From: Rugalucina vietnamica
Taxonomy: Eukaryota; Mollusca; Bivalvia; Lucinida; Lucinidae
DNA length: 64,000 bases
NCBI GenBank assembly: GCA_964017185.1
Contig: OZ024876.1
Span: 31,774,778-31,838,777 of the forward strand
Reading direction: 5' to 3'
The stretch's first letter is position 1. Every line of letters starts with the position of its first letter. The translations under genes were made by a program, and so were the position numbers. The notes beneath the pieces were generated by a model. The model searched no databases, had not been told where the DNA came from, and worked only from the letters and a program-made list of their open reading frames with translations. Positions 5,160-61,023 of this stretch are shown here, one piece after another.

Positions 5160-5980
5160 ATTTGCATATTGGTTTAGGTCTGTCCGTCCGTCCAGGCCAG
5201 TGCGTGAGTTACTCTTAGCGCTCGGTCAAGAACCGTTAGAAGTAGGATCTTGAAATTTGGTATGTGGTTTGCATATGACAATAAAGAGGACCCATATTTT
5301 CTCTTTTAGGTAAATTCAAGGGGCTAGGGGTCAATTCTGTGAGAGTTATTTCCCTTTTTAATTCTTGATAAAGTGAATAGATAGTGGGTACCTTGTGTGC
5401 GCAACTCCTCCTACAGTTTAATACCGATTCTTTTGAAAGTGACCATATTTTTGAAGATATGCATATCGTTTGTTTGGATATAATCCTCAGATTATTTTGG
5501 CGCCTCGCTCGGGGCACGAGAGCCAAGTTCTACTTGCGGGTGTGTCAGGTGGTTTTTCCCCGGGTACTCCGGTTTTCGCCCCACCTACCAATTGATTCGT
5601 CTCGATATGAGTGAAAAAGCTTGAAAGGGACGTAAAACTGAATCAAAAAAAAAAAAAAAAAAAAAAAGATTATTTTTGTCACTTTAATAGCAATTTGAAC
5701 TTAGCCATTTTTCGGGCATTTTTACAATGAAAGTGAATGGACAGTGGGTAGCTTGTGTGCGCATTTCCTCCTACAGTTTAATACCAACTCTTTTAAAACT
5801 TTACAAGTGTTATGGAAATGGTCTGAAGATATGCATATCGTTTCAATATAATCCTCAGATTATTTTTTGTCTTTTTTTCATAATTTGAACTTAGTCATTT
5901 TTTTCGTGAATTTTAGTGAATGGATATACGTGTGTGCGCAACTCCTCTTACATTTTAATACCGATACTTTTGAAACTTTT
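5160..5980. repeat. Scrambled partial repeats (GTGTGCGCAACTCCTCCTAC family)
   Basis: Three degenerate copies of one segment lie here, at about 5376-5495, 5733-5860 and 5917-5975. They share the phrases GTGAATGGACAGTGGGTA, GTGTGCGCAACTCC and TTTAATACCGATTCTTTTG. Another piece of the same repeat is at 6975-7095. The copies are interrupted by a SINE fragment. No coding potential is seen. This is probably the decayed remains of one larger repeat family. Confidence 0.5.
5505..5664 (+). repeat. SINE fragment (3' part, MetaSINE-like core) with poly-A
   Basis: This stretch matches the body and tail of the complete SINE at 9921-10166. Shared parts are the TTGCGGGTGTGTCAGGTGG core, the CCGGTTTTCGCCCCACC segment and the end CTTGAAAGGGACGTAAAAC, followed here by about 20 A. 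The tRNA-like head is missing, so it is a 5'-truncated copy, as expected of retroposition. Confidence 0.75.
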
Positions 5981-6112
5981 TGGCCCGCCGGGGTTCAAAT
6001 GGTGTTTTTCTTTTGCTCCGGAGTTAGTAAATTATTTGGCGCCCAGGGATCTCCAGCGTCGGGCAGCTTACTCAATCTGTGAGTCCTCGTTTTTGATTCT
6101 GTTTATCGTGAT

Positions 6113-6544
6113 TTTCTCATTATTGTGTTCACTGCTCTTAAAGGATCTCAGTTTTAATTTTTATTTGCTATTATTGCAGCTGGTGTTGAGCCGTGTGGCG
6201 GCCCTTAAAAGTCTCCCCGTACATCGTCCATAGTGCAGGCTATATTTTCTTTTTGGTCCTTTGAGATCAGCGAGTATATTCTGTGAAATCAAAAATCTAT
6301 TATCGGCCAAGATTCATTTTCTAGCCAATGTTTAATATATTTGGTCCCATTTAGATAATACTAGTCTTTGTATCGACTACCCTGTTGCAAGTTGCAAAAT
6401 TACAGCAATTCTCTTTGGCTCAGTGTTGTCAAATCTAAAGGGTCACTGACGAGACTTCAATAGTCGAAACCGCGGTATGGCCCATCCCCTTTCTCATTAT
6501 TGTGTTCACTGCTCTTAAAGGATTTCAGTTTTAATTTTTATTTG
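6113..6544 (+). mobile_element. Retrozyme-like unit with hammerhead ribozyme and 55-bp direct repeats
   Basis: A short non-coding insertion inside a family-C repeat. Its two ends are 55-bp direct repeats (6113-6167 and 6490-6544) that differ at one base. The repeat distance is 377 bp, so about 1.15 units are inserted. A hammerhead ribozyme lies just upstream of the right repeat (6440-6483). Two further dispersed copies of the unit (around 10500-10760 on plus and 12750-13005 on minus) share the sequence upstream of the ribozyme. An insertion longer than one unit, with a self-cleaving motif per unit, is what reverse transcription of a multimeric or circular RNA would leave. The architecture resembles animal hammerhead retroelements, but the family assignment is inference. 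Confidence 0.75.
6440..6483 (+). ncRNA. Hammerhead ribozyme, apparently intact
   Basis: All conserved parts are present in order. Stem I 5' strand GGGTCA (6440-6445). Core CTGACGA (6446-6452; position 7 is C, a position known to tolerate change). Stem II GACT/AGTC closing a 5-base loop. GAA plus A15.1 (6466-6469). Stem III ACCG/CGGT (6469-6476), which is palindromic with no loop. A17 at 6477 as cleavage-site base. Stem I 3' strand TGGCCC (6478-6483). Every stem base pairs, with one G-U in stem I. Cleavage would fall between 6477 and 6478. A loop-less stem III predicts activity mainly as a dimer, as described for short-stem-III hammerheads of animal retroelements. Open stem I makes it type I. 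Confidence 0.82.
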
Positions 6545-6965
6545 TTTGTCCATGGTGATTCATTGACTAGTTAGAGATTCATTACGAGGACCGAACAACT
6601 GAATGTTGTGAACCACTGCAGAAGCTGAGCGTGAGGTTAGGTACCCAAAAATCGATTTAAGCCCGCCAGTAATTTTATATTTCTGATCGTTCCAAGGCGA
6701 TACTTCTGTGGTGGTTCTTATTGTTTTCTGTCTTGGAAATTAAAATTAATGTTTGTGCTGTTGGCGCCTTATGTATGTTTTCATATTTTTAGTTAAGTTT
6801 AGGTAACTGAGTGACCAACTATTGGGAAAATAGCTGCTCATTCGCCTTACGATATGTTTTCATGGTATAAAAACCTGGTTGTTAATTTAGTTTTTCCCAC
6901 TTCGGTTTTTGGAGTGGGAATCTTGTTCTGATTGCGCTTTTTCCTGATCTTTGCCTCCTTGTACC

Positions 6966-9145
6966 TTTTTACAGATGCTGTGACCATGCTTTGAAGATAT
7001 GCATGTGGTTGGGATATACTCTTCAGATTAATTTTTGTCACTACCTTTGCAATTTGAACTCAGTCATTTTTCAGACATTTTCACAATGAAAGTGAGGTAC
7101 CTGTTGGGGGCATAGTGTTTCATAAACACATTTTCTAGTTCAAAAATTGTGAAATCATGACATTTTTCTGAACCGTATGGAATGCATGATTTTGTTTACA
7201 GTTTGGAATGCATTGCTTGCAACGGTCATATTCAATTTAATTTTGACAATTACTAGTTTGGGGTAGAGTTTTAGTAATTTTTTTAAACAAATCTATATCG
7301 ATTTTAAAAAGGTATTCCTCATAACCCGTAGCTTAAGTACTATAAGTTCAACTGATAAAGGTTAAAATAAGCAAAGACCAAGAACTGGCACAATCAGAAC
7401 CAAAACACCACCAAAAACAGAGGTTGGAAAACACCAAATTGACAATCAGGTGGGCATCCAGTATCCTGAACTTGATAAATGTATAACCATATTAACTGTC
7501 CAAGCAGCTCAAAACATCGATTCCAAAGCATTAAACTAAATTATATTTAGTTGTTCGGCCCACTTGAGTTATCTCTTAAAGGTACAGCTGCACAAAAGCC
7601 GACACCAAAACATGCAGCAAATAGATGAAGACAGTTTAGAGTCCTTTGGGTTACCATTAAAAGGTTAAACTTGTTTTGCACTACGAAAAATGAAAAAAGT
7701 GAATATATCAGAATACTTTGTTGAGTGTTTCATGACAGGGGTAGAATTTATTTTTGTGGATTTGATTTATGTTGAGTTTGAAAGTGATAAACACTGATAA
7801 ATTCAAGAAAAATAATATTTTATTATTTATTATTCCTAAGAGATGGGCATGTTGCAACCACCTTGAAAAATTCTGTCAGACCAGAAAGCTCGCAAGGTTC
7901 ATCAAGTCTTGATCATGAAATACAGTCAATGACCAAAAGTATATCTACAACTTCGAAAACTCCATAGACTTGCGTGTATTTGTAAACAAGAAAACTTCGT
8001 TATCCGGGGTCAGAAGGACAACGCATTTTCATGATTTGGTGTCATTTGAAATTTAAATAAACCAAATAAACAAGGTTATTTGATGACTATGCATTTTATA
8101 TACAACAATTTTATTTTAGTAAAATTTGAAAAGGCCAATTTCCCATTGACACCAATGGCCGGACGTTGCTGAAAAATGTAAAAATAAATCTCACATGTTG
8201 TTTTTAAAAAAATTGTAGCTTTAAAACGCATGCATGGAATAGTATGAAAATGCCATGTTTATTGCTTTATTCATTTACCTTTCAAATAACAGCAAAATCG
8301 TGAAAATTTGTTGACCAGGAGATTTTTCGTCTAAACACTTGATACATGTAAGCATGTAGAGTTTCCGACTGTAGGTTACTTGAGGAAAGTTGTATATGCA
8401 ATGAGCTTTAAATCAATGCTTGTTAGCTAAAAGAAGAATTTTTATGTGCGGCACAGATACAAAGAATAAAATGTGCTAAGAGTAACCTGAAAATTTTAAT
8501 ACAGTATGCTGAATCATTTTATTGGAGACCTTACTAACTTTGATTTTTCTATAATTTGAACGAGATTGCATTGCTACATAATATCTATTTTATATAATAT
8601 GTATTTTTTTTCAATGATTCTTTTACCAAAGAGAAACATTTAACTTTCCATAGTAGCTATAATGAAGCAATTTTTGTTTCACGCACGTCGCTTCCAACTT
8701 TTTAATATGATATTAAAACCTACAAAAGATCTTTAATTTTAATGAATTATCTGGTTTGTTTCCAATCGTTCCCTTTATTTGACAAGTCATATTAAAGGCA
8801 TTCAGTGGTAATTGCTTTCTTTATTCGAACAAATTTAGTAACATAACTAATCTACCTTCACCAGACTTTTAAAGATTCTTTTGAATTAGAATGGCAATAT
8901 TATATTTTCCTCAAAGACCAAACGAAATCATCTGTTGTAATTTACAAACTTGGGGAATTCATGCGTAAAATACCCATCAAGCGTACATGATATCAACAGC
9001 AATTTTGCTATTAGCACAGCTAGATATAAATATTTGATTTAATCGAACTAACAACTTAAAGGTCATTGATTAAGATAAAAGATGTGAAAATGAGTCAACT
9101 TATAGTTGCCTGTAATGAATACAATCATATGATTGAAACCTTTCA
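6966..9145. other. Intergenic AT-rich DNA, nothing recognised
   Basis: Apart from a repeat scrap at 6975-7095 related to 5376-5860, no gene, long ORF, clear inverted-repeat element or RNA gene could be supported in this 2.1-kb stretch. Confidence 0.5.
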
Positions 9146-12749: not shown

Positions 12750-13005
12750 GTAGACCATACCCAATAACGTATTCATGAGGTAACGCCCATACAGTGACCC
12801 ATTTGCTGAACTATATAATCAAAATGGGGCCAAATATATTAAACTTTGGTTAGAAAACGAATCTTAACCGATAATAATTTTCTGATTTCTCAGAATACCT
12901 TTGCTGATCTTAAAGGACAAAAGGAAAATATAATCTGTACTATAGATGATGTACGGGGAGACTTTTTAGGGCCGTCACACGGCACAACACCAGCTGCAGT
13001 AATAA
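12750..13005 (-). repeat. Third, decayed hammerhead-unit copy
   Basis: Read on the minus strand this matches the unit at 6165-6445: GCAGCTGGTGTTG, AAGTCTCCCCGTACATC, ATATTTTC, GATCAGC, TTATCGG, TTTAATATATTTGG.CCCAT, then GGGTCACTG at 12800-12792. After that point the ribozyme core is scrambled and the GAA box is not in place, though GGTATGG.C of the cleavage region persists near 12761-12753. It is an old copy with a dead ribozyme. It extends the unit to a third locus on the other strand. Confidence 0.65.
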
Positions 13006-26087: not shown

Positions 26088-26866
26088 CTTCACGTTACAG
26101 ACGTATAGGTTATAACTTGAATGTTATGCGACAGTCTGCATGCTTAGTTTTTAACCCAATCATGGTTGATAACTATGCTGCCTTCTTTAATTGCACGCCG
26201 GTGGGTCGGGCGTCAGACTCTATGATGGCCCCGACTTAAAGCTATTCATTTTAGTTGGTTGGGGCCGGAGCTTCTTGTCTGTTGCTTGGCCCACCGGGGT
26301 CCAACTGGTGTTTTTCTTTTGCTCCGGAGTTAGTAGGTTATTCGGCGCCCAGGGATCTCCATCGTCGGGCAGCTTACTCAATCTGTGAGTCCTGGTTTTT
26401 GATTCATCAGGATGTTTATCATGATTTATTTGTTTGTTCTTGATGATTCATTGACTAGTTAGAGATTCACCACGAGGACCGAAGAACTAACTAAATGTTG
26501 TGAACCACTGCAGAAGCTGAGGGTGAGGTTAGGTACCTGTAAAACCGGTTTAAGCCCGCCAGTAACTTTGTGTTACTGATCGTTCCAAGTCGATACTTCT
26601 GTAGTGGTTCTTTTTGTTTTATGTCTTGGTGTTTGAAATTTTTTGTGCTGTTGGCGCCTTATGTATGTTTTCAAATTTTTAGTTAAGTTAAGGTAACTGA
26701 GTGGCCACGTATTGGGAAAATAGCTGCTCATTCGGCTTACGATATGTTTCATGGTATAAGTACCTGATTGTTAGTTTGGTTTTTTCCCACCTCGGTTTTT
26801 GGAGTGGGAATCTTTTTCTGATTGCGCCTTTTCCTGATCTTTGCCTACTTGTACCTTAGTGGACCA
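26088..26866 (+). repeat. Family-C interspersed repeat, reference copy
   Basis: The most complete uninterrupted copy. Landmarks in order: CGTTACAGACGTATAGG, CTGCATGCTTAGTTTTTAAC, CCACCGGGGTCCAACTGGTG, TGAACCACTGCAGAAGCTG, GTAAAACCGGTTTAAGCCCG, CTGTTGGCGCCTTATG, the hairpin TTCCCAC/GTGGGAA near 26788-26813, and the end CTTGTACC. Partial or reversed copies are at 5975-6965, 34340-35163 (minus), 35431-35783 and 62590-62830. No ORF. The 3'-proximal hairpin recalls Helitron ends, but the diagnostic terminal CTRR is not evident. Confidence 0.75.
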
Positions 26867-34339: not shown

Positions 34340-35163
34340 GCAAACATTAAGTATTTTGTTTATCAAAAGGTACAAGTACAAAATGAACATGAAATGGTAC
34401 AAAATGAACATGAAATGGTGCAATCACTGAGAAATAAATTTCCACTCCAAAAACCGAGGTAGGAAAAACTAAATGGGCAGTTGGGTACTCTAAATAAGAA
34501 AACATATCGTAAGCCGAGTGAGCAGCTAATTCCCAATAGGCGACCACTCAGTTACCCGAACTTAACTAAAAATATGAAAACGTACACAAGGTTCAAATAG
34601 CACAAAAATTCGGCTCCAAAAATGATAAAACAAGTAGAACCAAAACAGAAGCATTGCCTTGGAACGACCAGCAATATAAAATTACTGGGGGGATTAAACC
34701 GGTTTTACAGGGCCCTAACCGCATGCTCATCTTCTGAAATGGTTCACAACATTTAGTTAGTTCAGTGTTCGGTCCTCGTGGTGAATCTCTAACTAGTCAT
34801 TGAACCATCGAGGAAAAGCAAATAAATCATGATAACCACCATCATGAATCAAAAACGAGGACACATAATCAGTAAGCTGCCCAGCGATGGAGATCCTTGG
34901 GTGCAAAACAACTTGCTGAAAATCTGGATCAAAAGAAAAACACCAGTTGTACCCAGGAAGAGGGGCACCAAGCAACAGACTAGAAACTCCAGTCCTAACC
35001 AACTTAAATGAATAGCTTTAAGTCGGGCCATCACAGAGTCTGACGCCCGACCAGACGCAATTAAAGAAGGCAGCATAGTTATCAACCATGATTGGGTTAA
35101 AAAATAAGCATGCAAACTGTCGCATAACATTTAAGTTATATCCTACTGTATACGTCTGTAACG
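34340..35163 (-). repeat. Family-C repeat, reverse copy
   Basis: Read on the minus strand it follows the order of 26088-26866, from GTTACAGACGTATA (35163) to the hairpin ATTTCCACTCCAAAAACCGA region (about 34436). Near its lower end lie two direct copies of GGTACAAAATGAACATGAAA (34370-34420). Together with the plus-strand copy at 35431 it forms a large inverted pair. Confidence 0.72.
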
Positions 35164-35430
35164 TATGATGATTTTTTCTGAATTGAAAAGAAAAAACATT
35201 CCTTCCTATAAGTTTCTTTTTGTAAACCAAGTCACCATAAAATTCTGGTTCCGGAAGACCCGCACGTAGAAGCATCTTTATAACCCAACATCAAATTTGG
35301 AAATCAATTCATAGTGGCTGCGATAAAATTTAGGAAATGTTTTTCGAGGTTTATGACACCAATATCCCCACTGGAGAAGTTTGGCTGCTATAATTTTATT
35401 TCGCGTGTTAAAGTCCACAACATGATTGCT

Positions 35431-35783
35431 TGGCCCACCGGGGTTCAACTGGTGTTTGTATTTTGCTCCGGGTTTCAGTAGGTTATTCGGCGCCCAGGGA
35501 TCTCCATCGTCGGACAGCTTACTCATCAGGATGGTTATCATGATTTATTCGTTTGTCCTTGATGATTCATTGACTAGTTAGAGATTCACCACGAGGACCG
35601 ACCAACTAACTAAATGTTGTGAACCACTGCAGAAGATGAGGGTGAGTTAGGCGCCTGTAAAACCGGTTTAAGCTCCCCCGTAATTTTATATTACTGATCG
35701 TTCCAAGGCGATACTTCTGATGTGGTTCTAATTGTTTTGTGTTTTGGAGTCGAATTTTGTGCTGTTTGAGCATTATGTACCTT
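35431..35783 (+). repeat. Family-C repeat, partial copy
   Basis: Matches 26283-26670: CCACCGGGGTTCAACTGGTG, TCGGCGCCCAGGGATCTCC, GTGAACCACTGCAGAAG, TAAAACCGGTTTAAGC. It stops before the GGCGCCTTATG and hairpin portions and runs into the GTGACTTTTTCC-array element. Confidence 0.7.
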
Positions 35784-35803
35784 TTTTCTACTTTTTTTTC
35801 TAC

Positions 35804-42789: not shown

Positions 42790-43800
42790 CACTGACATCT
42801 GACTCCAGTGGCTCACTAACACGCGTTTCAATTTGGCTCATTGATACCCGACTCCAGTGGCTCACTAACATGCTATTCATTTGGCACACTGACACCCGAC
42901 TCTAGTGGCTCACTAACACGCGATTCAATTTGTTCACTGCAATCCCACTGTAATGGCTCACTAACAAGCGATTCTATTGGCTCACTGACATCCGACTCCA
43001 GTGACTCACTAACACGCGATTCAATTTGTTCACTGCAATCCCACTGTAATGGCTCACTTACACGCGATTCTATTGGCTCACTGACATCCGACTCCAGTGA
43101 CTCACTAACACGCGATTCAATTGGCTCACTGCAATCCGACTGTAATGGCTCACTAACATGCGATTCTATTGGCTCACTGACATCCGACTCCAGTGACTCA
43201 CTAACACGCGATTCAATTTGTTCACTGCAATCCCACTGTAATGGCTCACTTACATGCGATTCTATTGGCTCACTGACATCCGACTCCAGTGGCTTACTAA
43301 CATGCGATTCTATTGGCTAACTGACATCCGACTCCAGTGACTCACTAACACGCGATTCATTTGGCTCACTGCAATCCGACTGCAATGGCTCACTAACATG
43401 CGATTCTTTTGGCTCACTGACATCCGACTCCAGTGACTCACTAACACGCGATTCAATTGGCTCACTGCAATCCGACTGTAATGGCTCACTAACATGCGAT
43501 TCTATTGGCTCACTGACATCCGACTCCAGTGACCCACTAACACGCGATTCAATTGGCTCACTGCAATCCGACTGTAATGGCTCACTAACATGCGATTCTA
43601 TTGGCTCACTGACATCCGACTCCAGTGGCTCACTAACATGAGATTCTATTGACTCACTGATATACGAATCGAGTGGATCACTAACATGCAATTGTATTGG
43701 CTTGCTGATATACGTTTCCAGGGGCTCACTAACATGCAATTCTATTTGCCCACTTACATCTGACTCCAGTGACTCTCTAACACGCGATTCAATTAACTCA
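42790..43800. repeat. 24-bp satellite array 1 (about 42 units)
   Basis: A tandem array of 24-bp units of the form GGCTCACT(A/G)ACAT(G/C)CGA plus TTCTATT or CTCCAGT. Two main unit types alternate (GCGATTCTATT type and CCGACTCCAGT type), with CTGCAATCCGACTGTAAT variants, making 48- to 120-bp higher-order repeats. Each unit junction contains AGTGGCTCACT, a small dyad. Because 24 is a multiple of three, several frames on both strands stay open; on minus this reads as EPIESHVS/EPLESDVS octapeptides. This is an array artefact rather than evidence of a gene. Confidence 0.9.
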
Positions 43801-44896: not shown

Positions 44897-45655
44897 TGGT
44901 CGTTCGTCTCTCACTAATGAGAAAGACCATCATTATTTCTTGAATAGGTTCGTGTGTGTTGGTGAGTTCTTTGATGGCTGACTAGGCCAATTCTAGCTCT
45001 AAACTGTCGGTTGCAAGTAGAGCAAGTCAATGTCATGGAATCAGCTGGTGGCCCATTGGTATTGGCTTTGCGTTCTCTGCGCTTTTTTCAGCTTCACAGA
45101 TTATCTTTTTTCATAGAGAGCTGCTCCTTTGTTGATGAGACATCGCCACTTTGATCGCTCCTTTGCAGTCTGTTCCCAAGACCCAATTGGTATGTCGAAA
45201 TCCTTGAGGGTGTCTTTGTAGCGTTTCTTCTGGCCACTTTGAGAGCGCTTTCCCTATAGAAGACTTTTTTGGTGGAAGTCGCTTATCAGGCATTCTTATA
45301 ACATGGCCAATCCACTTTAGCTATGTTAGCTTTAAGACAGTATGCATGCTTTGCATCCCTGCTTTCTTCAGGACATCCGTGTCTGGAATCTTGTCTTGCC
45401 ACTTGATTTTTAACAGCTTTCGCAAACAGCTTGAATGGAAATGATTAAGTCACTTTGCATGACGCTGGTATATTGTCCAGGTCTCACATGTATACAAGAG
45501 GGTTGGCAGTACCACGGCCTTGTAGACTTTCAGCTTGGTGTCAAGCTTGATTCCATTTCGCTCCAAGACATTTGCACGGAGTCTTCCAAAAGCCACACTG
45601 GCTTTTGCGATTCTGGCAGTGACCTCATCATCAATGTGCACTACTTTACTATACG
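44897..45655 (-). pseudogene. LINE fragment: RT C-terminus and C2H2 zinc finger
   Basis: On the minus strand, DDEVTARIAKASVAFGRL, then KLKVYKAVVLPTLLYTCETW (both near 45650-45470), is the region just after the reverse transcriptase catalytic core of a non-LTR retrotransposon. After frameshifts it continues through IRMPDKRLPPKK (near 45293-45258) and a C2H2 finger CSTCNRQFRARIGL..H..H (about 45030-44960). It is 5'-truncated, frameshifted and dead. Its truncated 5' end is joined in frame to array 3, and its 3' end to array 2, so it either inserted into a pre-existing array or was captured by it. Confidence 0.85.
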
Positions 45656-46590
45656 ATTCCAGTGGTTCACTGAAATGCGGTTCTATTGGCTCACTGATAT
45701 ACGATTCCTGGGGCTCACTAACATGCGATTTTATTGGCTCACTGATATACGATTCCAGGGGCTCACTAGCATGCAATTCTATTGACTCACTGATATACGA
45801 ATCCAGTGGCTCACCAACATGCGATTGTATTGGCTCACTGATATACGATTCCAGTGGCTCACTAACATGTGATTCTATTGGCTCACTGATATACGATTCC
45901 AAGGGCTCACTAACATGTGATTCTATCGGCTCATTGATATACAATTCCAGGGGCTCAATAACACGCGATTCTATTGGCTCACTTATATACGATTCCAGGG
46001 GCTCATTAACATTCGATTCTATTGGCTAACTAATATCCGATTCCACTGGCTCCCTAACATGCGATTCTGTTGGCTCACTGATATACGAATCCAGTGGCTC
46101 ACTTACATGCGATTCTATTGGCTCGAGGATATACGATTCCTTGGGTTCACTAGCATGCGATTCTATTGGCTCGAGGATATACGACTCCTTGGGTTCACTA
46201 GCATGCGATTCTATTGGCTCGAGGATATACGATTCCTTGGGTTCACTAGCATCCGATTCTATTGGCTCGAGGATATACGATTCCTTGGGTTCACTAGCAT
46301 GCGATTCTATTGGCTCGAGGATATACGATTCCTTGGGTTCACTAGCATGCGATTCTATTGGCTCGAGGATATACGATTCCTTGGGTTCACTAGCATGTGA
46401 TTCTATTGGCTCGAGGATATACGATTCCTTGGGTTCACTAGCATGCGATTCTATTGGCTCGAGGATATACGATTCCTTGGGTTCACTAGCATGCGATTCT
46501 ATTGGCTCGAGGATATACGATTCCTTGGGTTCACTAGCATGCGATTCTGTTTGCACACTTATATACGACTCCAGTGGCTCAAAGTGACAC
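45656..46590. repeat. 24-bp satellite array 3 with homogeneous 48-bp units
   Basis: About 39 units. From 45656 to 46110 they are GGCTCACTGATATACGATTC plus CAGG alternating with GGCTCACTAACATGCGATTC plus TATT. From about 46115 to 46545 nine near-identical 48-bp units (GGCTCGAGGATATACGATTC, then CTTGGGTTCACTAGCATGCG) form a recently homogenised block. Open frames on three frames (for example octapeptides EPKESYIL/EPIESHAS on minus) follow from the unit length. Confidence 0.9.
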
Positions 46591-57501: not shown

Positions 57502-58304
57502 TTTTGTTTGTCAGTTTTTCTTCGTAATGGTGTTTTCATGTTCTTGAGTTAAAGAAAATATTGAATTAAGAAGAGTCAATAAACTACAATCCAGTGTTTA
57601 AATTCACGGAAATGAAACCAGGCAGCGTGATTAAAATGAGAAATGTCGAATAATTTCTTGTCGATTATGGAAAGACAAGTTTCTTCACTGTGAATATTTG
57701 TCAAGCAATTGAGCCGCATTATGAGAAAACAAATATTTTGCATATGCGAAAACAAAGGCGCAGATCAGCTTCGCAGTAACTTCGAGGCTCATCAGTATGA
57801 GGCGCCGTTTTACTATAAAATCAGTATTTTTGATATCAGAAAATCGAATTTTTGATATCAAAAAATCGAATTTCTGATATCAAGAAATCGAATTTCTGAT
57901 ATCAAAAAATCAAAGCGATTTCTTGATATCAAAAATTCGATTTTCTGATATCAAAAATTCGATTTTCTGATATCAAAAAATCGAATTTCTGATATCAAAA
58001 AATCAAAGCGATTTCTTGATATCAAAAATTCGATTTTCTGATATCAAAAATTCGATTTTCTGATATCAAAAAATCGAATTTCTGATATCAAAAAATCAAA
58101 GCGATTTCTTGATATCAAAAATTCGATTTTCTGATATCAAAAATTCGATTTTTTGATATCAGAAAATCAAAGCGATTATTTGATATCAAAAATTCGATTT
58201 TTTGATATCAAAAAATCTGGAAAATTTTCCTTCTAAGAAATGATGGCTCCCTAACAAGAAACAATTAGAGTAGTTTCCCATGTAAAGTAAACAGTTTATG
58301 GGTT

Positions 58305-60085: not shown

Positions 60086-61023
60086 TTATTCTGTTCTGCC
60101 TTCAAAGTGTCTGAATAATTAAAGGCACATTCCGGCCCATTTCAATAAAGAAACGCATGGCAAACCGTATATATTCTGCTGCGCATGTTTCAAGTCTGAC
60201 CATCGGTAATTTTACTGAACATACACAGCGGATTTCAAGTAGATTTTCGCGAAAACTATAGTGACCATAGTTAAACACCTGAACTCAGCCTATGCAAGCC
60301 TATAAATAATTTGAGGGATCTATCATTTTTTCTCAGCAAAGGAAGGCCTAAAGGATTTTTTGATATCACAAAATCGAATTTTTGATATCAAAAAATACTC
60401 ATCATTTTTTGATATCAGAAATTCGATTTTTTGATATCAGAAATTCGATTTTCTGATATCAAAAAATAAGCCTGATTTTTTGATATCACAAATTCGATTT
60501 TGTGATATCAAAAATTCGAATTTTTGATATCAAAAAATCGAATTTGTGATATCAAAAAATCAGGCTTATTTTTTGATATCAGAAAATCGAATTTCTGATA
60601 TCAAAAATTCGATTTTCTGATATCAAAAATTCGATTTTCTGATATCAAAAAATAAGCCTGATTTTTTGATATCAGAAATTCGATTTTTTGATATCAGAAA
60701 TTCGATTTTCTGATATCAAAAAATCGATTTTTTGATATCAAAAAATATTTTCTGATATCAAATAATATTTTCTGATATCAAAAAATCGAATTTCTGATAT
60801 CAAAAAATAATTTTTGATATCAAAAAATCGAATTTCTGATATCAAATAATCGGGATTTTATAGTAAAACGGCACCCCATACATCAGCGCCTTTGCATGGC
60901 TACACGAATACTGTGCTCGTACAGCTCGGTTTGTGTCGGACCTATTTGAAAACCGCATTGTTGGTTTTCTCATGACGTGGCTCATATATATGTCAAAAGG
61001 CATCATATGCGTAAATGTGATGT

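Follow-up and report, generated by a model that had tools for sequence, protein, structure and literature searches.

Metazoan non-LTR retrozymes, described from coral, Mytilus galloprovincialis and axolotl, carry a type I hammerhead ribozyme, occur in many copies and co-exist with Penelope-like elements (PLEs), as do the copies analyzed here. Their units measure 150–450 bp (approximately 350–390 bp in mussel), are arranged in tandem from dimers upward and are low in G+C (main text of PMC7229834), compared with 377 bp and 39% for the unit reported here. No statement on a fixed array 3′ end or on a conserved module was found in that text, and the terms truncation, junction and insertion site are absent from it. 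Plant LTR retrozymes likewise consist of a hammerhead-flanked, non-autonomous unit with a circular RNA (probable in the present case), but differ in having a type III hammerhead, LTRs, PBS/PPT, 4-bp duplications and circles of 600–800 nt (PMC7229834). Hammerheads are also carried by some PLEs. In PAc of Anolis, the hammerhead is followed by a fixed internal start of reverse transcription, as proposed below for the retrozyme, with the cut at 26 nt and the start at 111–118 nt into the ORF; RNA 3′ of the start is required, including the first 172 nt of the ORF (PMC11167929). The Anolis PLE used mainly uncut RNA as its substrate and continued to insert when its hammerhead was mutated (PMC11167929), evidence against PLEs in general having to cut their RNA. 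The PLEs of Anolis and Adineta resemble the present retrozyme in their tandem or partial-tandem copies, 5′ truncation and target duplications of 8–10 bp or none, the latter in Adineta with microhomology (PMC11167929, PMC3846280). No literature linking hammerhead ribozymes, bivalves and satellite DNA was found.

The window (the whole 64-kb stretch of DNA analyzed) contains one retrozyme insertion within a copy of a repeat termed family C, a fragment of a second retrozyme, and three family-C copies with an empty site:

5980..6112, + strand: host family-C repeat, left part
6113..6544, + strand: retrozyme insertion of 432 bp, 1.15 units; true 3′ end at approximately 6541, uncertain by up to 8 nt that insert and target have in common
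6113..6167, + strand: 5′ partial unit, unit positions 323–377, the overhang past one lap
6168..6544, + strand: one full 377-bp unit, 39% G+C, no ORF
6168..6267, + strand: conserved module, unit 1–100, adjoining the fixed insertion end on its 3′ side, which may bind RT or act as a promoter
6440..6483, + strand: type I hammerhead with a two-pair stem III, cut between 6477 and 6478
6502..6541, + strand: 3′-end block, unit 335–374, which reaches the fixed insertion terminus (64 nt past the ribozyme cut)
6545..6967, + strand: host family-C repeat, right part
12810..13004, − strand: second retrozyme fragment, approximately unit 2–198, 85% identical
26286..26857, + strand: sister family-C copy with empty site (around 26425)
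34403..34957, − strand: sister family-C copy with empty site
35430..35785, + strand: sister family-C copy with empty site

The first-pass annotation of this DNA had described a non-coding insertion bounded by a 55-bp direct repeat with one mismatch, 377 bp apart. Both parts of that description were borne out, as 6113–6167 and 6490–6544 are 98% identical over 55 nt at a spacing of 377, and the longest stop-free stretch of the retrozyme tandem is 48–50 aa. The outer repeat, whose length varies between loci, lacks the set design of a terminal repeat and corresponds to the extra 0.15 unit that the insert carries past one full lap. Among 67 full units, the window copy diverges from the others by 7.3% on average, as compared to 3.2% for the others among themselves, and is an older copy. 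No stable fold was detected for the 377-bp unit or its 3′ part (z of 0.04 and 0.61).

The presence of a complete hammerhead at 6440–6483 was confirmed by its core, its retention across units and covariation (the last from five distinct sequences only), with a sub-threshold Rfam score. The motif comprises stem I GGGTCA/TGGCCC, CTGACGA, stem II GACT/AGTC, GAAA, and stem III AC/GT with the loop CGCG, and the cut falls between GTA (ending at 6477) and T6478, corresponding to unit coordinates 310 and 311. It was the single match on both strands of the window to a hammerhead descriptor requiring at least 4 pairs in stem I and at least 3 in stem II. The core pattern is kept in 60 of 67 full units, and the 44 letters of the window hammerhead are the commonest form, found in 36 of the 67 with the window's own counted in. 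Among five distinct related hammerheads, three pairs in stems II and III are changed on both sides (1.2 in shuffles, with 14 of 500 reaching this number), and 96.7% of the cells in the stems are paired versus 90.8% in shuffles (0/500); further pair types in the stems of these five sequences were no more numerous than in shuffled ones (353/500). The Rfam model RF00163 scored the window hammerhead at 15.6 bits (E of 2.2), under its gathering score of 34, so that automatic annotation would miss it; an Rfam scan likewise listed no hammerhead. A retrozyme subfamily with 374-bp units, read at L071 (G000:C1:17513657-17514757), carries a variant hammerhead with a compensated stem II (GGCT/AGCC) and the palindromic CCATGG in place of CCGCGG.

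An empty site had been noted in sister copies of the host repeat. Nine insert-free family-C copies, three from the window itself and six from fetched loci, substantiate it, reading GTTTATCRTGATTTATTTG or close to it. At the window junction, 8 nt (TTTATTTG) are common to insert and target, leaving the exact 3′ end ambiguous by 8 nt, and there is no target duplication beyond these shared letters. At L016, an insertion likewise located in a family-C repeat, the 8-bp TTCATGGT is present twice versus once in empty copies. A strict test for target duplications over the arrays was negative, with a mean of 4.67 against 4.56. In a wider test on 40 arrays, 10 had 6 or more letters in common near their two ends (expected 4.2, p = 0.0075) and 2 had 7 or more (expected 0.7, p = 0.16). 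Target duplications of the retrozyme are accordingly absent or short (6–8 bp), the excess being weak. Long duplications of up to 150 bp (mean 9.1 versus 7.5) were set aside, as this test is inflated by L013, a retrozyme inside a retrozyme, and by L046, a local repeat. Just upstream of the family-C copy at 26286–26857, positions 26214–26281 (+ strand) match Rfam SECIS_1 (39 bits, cut-off 35, E of 0.00025), possibly in the 3′ UTR of a selenoprotein gene.

The traits of the metazoan class found here are the type I hammerhead, non-coding tandem units of 150–450 bp, a G+C content below 50%, dispersed insertion with an empty site, and co-existing PLEs with a hammerhead variant (GIY-YIG matches and an atypical motif in the element PLE-964, described below). 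Class members have target duplications of more than 4 bp when these are present; none is clear at the window, one of 8 bp occurs at L016, and the overall excess is weak. The window insert is almost certainly a metazoan non-LTR retrozyme, and the earlier remark that hammerhead retroelements are known in animals applies to this described class (PMC7229834).

An exact 36-nt piece of the unit (unit 2–37) occurs 3007 times in the 1.09-Gb genome (47 contigs). A search with the retrozyme returned 95 matches from the best 40 of 4864 candidates scored, a sample that favors long copies, and many of these matches step by 375–378 bp. Tandem units of approximately 377-bp period with one hammerhead each, as anticipated by the first-pass annotation, were thus found elsewhere in the genome. 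The largest array read comprises 5.7 units (2144 bp), and many arrays are only 1.1–1.6 units long. Reading of 39 loci (L001, L009–L046) delimited 54 arrays, ten of which were dropped: three each at L030 and L031, which are segmental copies of L029, and four with less than 88% identity (at L013, L020 and two in L035). Among the 44 arrays of this family (RZ-A), 41 have their 3′ end at unit 374–377 (approximately 6541 in the window), 64 nt 3′ of the ribozyme cut, and the remaining three end at unit 99, 219 and 367. These ends were taken from fetched flanks, since the search query itself ends at that point; beyond the fixed end, sequences differ between loci and do not run on into the next unit. 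Three more loci from the list of module matches are also retrozymes, whose 3′ ends deviate from the RZ-A terminus by no more than a few nucleotides. The 5′ ends, by comparison, are spread over the unit (Rayleigh p of ∼0.13, n = 44). Starts within 3 nt of the cut number 1 of 42 (expected 0.8; starts 287 and 307 are omitted), and 2 of all 44 lie within 5 nt (expected 1.3).

A second family, RZ-B, surrounds a nested RZ-A array in L013. Two RZ-B units were used as query, giving 87 rows from the best 40 of 5076 candidates scored, and the rows were grouped into 46. This grouping is rough, since some adjacent groups, such as the pair separated by one unit at C4:58378857-58381496, probably belong to one array, and rows may be lacking for short partial units. 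As judged from search rows, 43 of the 46 groups end at the unit end, 59–61 nt past the cut; the exceptions stop at query 571, 540 and 344. Two of 39 RZ-B 5′ ends fall within 3 nt of the cut (expected 0.7; seven groups starting at unit 1 are omitted). Retrozyme copies thus have a fixed 3′ end and scattered 5′ ends that show no clear enrichment at the cut. Relative to published metazoan retrozymes (PMC7229834), the fixed 3′ end 60–64 nt past the cut, the scattered 5′ ends and the conserved module are measured here, whereas the circles are something we infer.

Units of the same array resemble one another, diverging by 1.35% within arrays (46 pairs) versus 3.40% between arrays (2165 pairs), and none of 2000 label shuffles gave a value as low. 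Variants common to all units of an array number 15 in L046 (3 units), 14 in L038 and 9 in L035; there are none in L010, L012, L014, L027 and L028, and just 27 of 46 units have their closest relative within their own array. The likeness could also stem from gene conversion or local duplication. Inserts exceed 64 nt in 42 of 44 cases and reach 2144 nt, again in a sample favoring long copies, while a linear self-cut monomer would yield at most 64 nt because it begins at unit 311 and copying starts at 374. Two short copies do begin near the cut, one at L041 (− strand; unit 307, 61 nt), which falls outside the 42-start test, and one at L035 (+ strand; unit 309, 68 nt), which was dropped for its 81% identity; both may be products of linear monomers. 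Taken together, the fixed 3′ end, the scattered 5′ ends, the inserts longer than 64 nt and the likeness within arrays favor a circular template with one entry site and a variable length of copying. The fixed 3′ end, scattered 5′ ends and alike units, along with the lack of a clear 5′ excess at the cut, also lend support to the rolling-circle or multimeric RNA intermediate proposed at the outset. An uncut multimer is a possible template as well, given that the Anolis PLE mainly used uncut RNA (PMC11167929).

The segment directly 3′ of the fixed end is the most conserved part of the unit. When one RZ-A unit was compared with two RZ-B units, identity was 91–93% over unit 1–115 and 96–100% over the first 50 positions, as compared to 66–69% over unit 116–270, 70–73% in the hammerhead and 69–70% in the last 61 nt. 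Exact 36-mers from unit 2–37, 335–370, 279–314 (hammerhead) and 162–197 occur 3007, 1172, 464 and 115 times in the genome, respectively, and reversed-pattern controls occur 0 times. The same four pieces are present in 52, 49, 39 and 28 units of the 67-unit sample, so that the excess of the module piece appears to be cross-family. Conservation of the module fits enzyme binding 3′ of an internal start, since a template read from its 3′ end explains it only through transcription. Alternatively, the module may be an internal promoter; no convincing Pol III boxes were seen in it by eye.

In the mechanism that best accounts for these observations, genomic arrays would be transcribed, the hammerhead would cut the RNA to 377-nt monomers, and the monomers would be closed to circles, as published retrozymes suggest. 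The reverse transcriptase would come from another element and most likely be of PLE type. Primed by the nicked A+T-rich target, it would begin at a single fixed position within the circle (unit ∼374, which lies 64 nt past the cut) and stop after copying a variable length, in many cases exceeding one lap. The resulting arrays would share a fixed 3′ end, differ in their scattered 5′ ends, consist of units drawn from a single template, and lack target duplications or show only short ones (6–8 bp); the window copy would represent one such event of 1.15 laps. Retrozyme identity and reverse transcription from an internal site of circular RNA are, considered jointly, probable; the RNA circle, target priming and the enzyme are those parts of the explanation that we infer. 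The class, its circles and the suspicion of PLE involvement are already published (PMC7229834), and new here are the fixed array 3′ end, the conserved module and a mechanistic proposal that can be tested.

We tentatively propose further, at somewhat less than an even chance, that animal retrozymes are obligate users of circles: a PLE-type enzyme would dock on the conserved ∼100-nt module 3′ of the internal start, and a full, re-transcribable copy would need a circle or an uncut multimer. If true, ribozyme and ligation would be what makes a retrozyme heritable, and the module would be an enzyme-recognition tag that stays near-invariant while the ribozyme and body diverge.

A fixed start beside a conserved segment narrows the candidates for the copying enzyme, and we consider a PLE-type enzyme about evenly balanced against all others. 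GIY-YIG matches are abundant in the genome (150 rows scored of 451 candidates). In PLE-964, which forms tandem units of 3893 bp, RT and GIY-YIG domains lie in an open frame. Its hammerhead-like motif (GCCTCTGAAGAAGCCGAAAGGCGAAAGCGCGCTC/AGGC) is atypical, with one extra A, and was matched by a relaxed descriptor only and by no Rfam model. Among 49 rows for the PLE-964 leader (best 40 of 725 candidates), 29 end at query 383–388, 13 at the query end, 4 at 276, 2 at 455 and 1 at 368. All four copies that were read have their true end at ATCTCATATTATA, with (TA)n after it, approximately 136–140 nt past the cut of the motif, and 4 rows end 41–48 nt 3′ of this cut. Together with the 59–64 nt of the retrozymes, these positions indicate fixed internal ends 3′ of a hammerhead-like motif in both kinds of element in this genome. 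With a start site fixed within a few nucleotides, a named conserved tag and an open PLE RT/GIY-YIG frame in the same genome, the question of the enzyme becomes one for an in vitro test.

Similarity between the retrozyme unit and 22 GIY-YIG loci was not significant (best E of 0.17). When the retrozyme start site was aligned with PLE-964, 26.8% and 4.6% of windows scored as well, and ATCTCA ... CTATTA, recognized by eye in both elements, is for this reason a lead only. The retrozyme also differs from PLEs in that it codes for nothing, has one start site rather than two, and has no directly abutting inverted partner at the loci read, where opposed copies lie ∼655 bp (L039) and 240 bp (L041) apart; PLE-964 sits in (TA)n and retrozymes do not. 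Lacking an ORF for RT and GIY-YIG, the retrozyme itself is no PLE, yet it works like one and may use one.

The same fixed-start copying of a circle could be performed by a LINE-type RT in place of a PLE, a variant contained within the preferred explanation rather than added to it, which we regard as possible, leaning toward doubtful. The approximately four GIY-YIG families sampled yielded no PLE whose 3′ end matched or that carried the module, and LINE priming is equally compatible with the 8 letters shared at the window site. LINE enzymes, however, normally start at the 3′ end of the RNA. The combination of internal start, upstream hammerhead and needed downstream RNA is the one reported for a PLE (PMC11167929).

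A SINE-like route, in which a LINE-type enzyme copies a linear transcript of several units from a genuine 3′ end at the T-rich TTTTAATTTTTATT (e.g., a Pol III stop), with random 5′ truncation, and the ribozyme only trims other products, is unlikely. The fixed 3′ end does lie just past TTTT and TTTTT, but every unit has such a T-rich stretch, and arrays of up to 5.7 units would need repeated read-through. LINE priming commonly gives 5′ truncation together with short or no duplications; however, units of one array are alike, which a mixed donor array would not give, and the most conserved segment sits 3′ of the end rather than before it. That arrays grew from a dispersed monomer through unequal exchange or local duplication, without multi-lap reverse transcription, is very unlikely, since local homogenization also predicts likeness within arrays but a common 3′ phase (41/44 arrays, 43/46 row groups) with scattered 5′ phases needs a phase-fixing step, the empty site in a repeat is clean, and many arrays span just 1.1–1.6 units.

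Several further repeats were observed. At L075 (G000:C17:33309386-33309956), PLE-964 copies stand tail-to-tail across (TA)n with ends approximately 136–140 and 41–48 nt past the motif, an arrangement suggestive of extension on both target strands. Copies of another GIY-YIG family (L047–L057) run out into (TA)n tracts of varied length; among L058, L062 and L063, only L058 continues into (TA)n, and L060, L061 and L064 end elsewhere. In the window, two long 48-bp tandem arrays at 42790–43794 and 45650–46581 are possibly coding repeats of 16 residues, and TGATATCA-rich tandem arrays with a 22-bp period lie at 57817–58217 and 60354–60852, approximately 2.1 kb apart.
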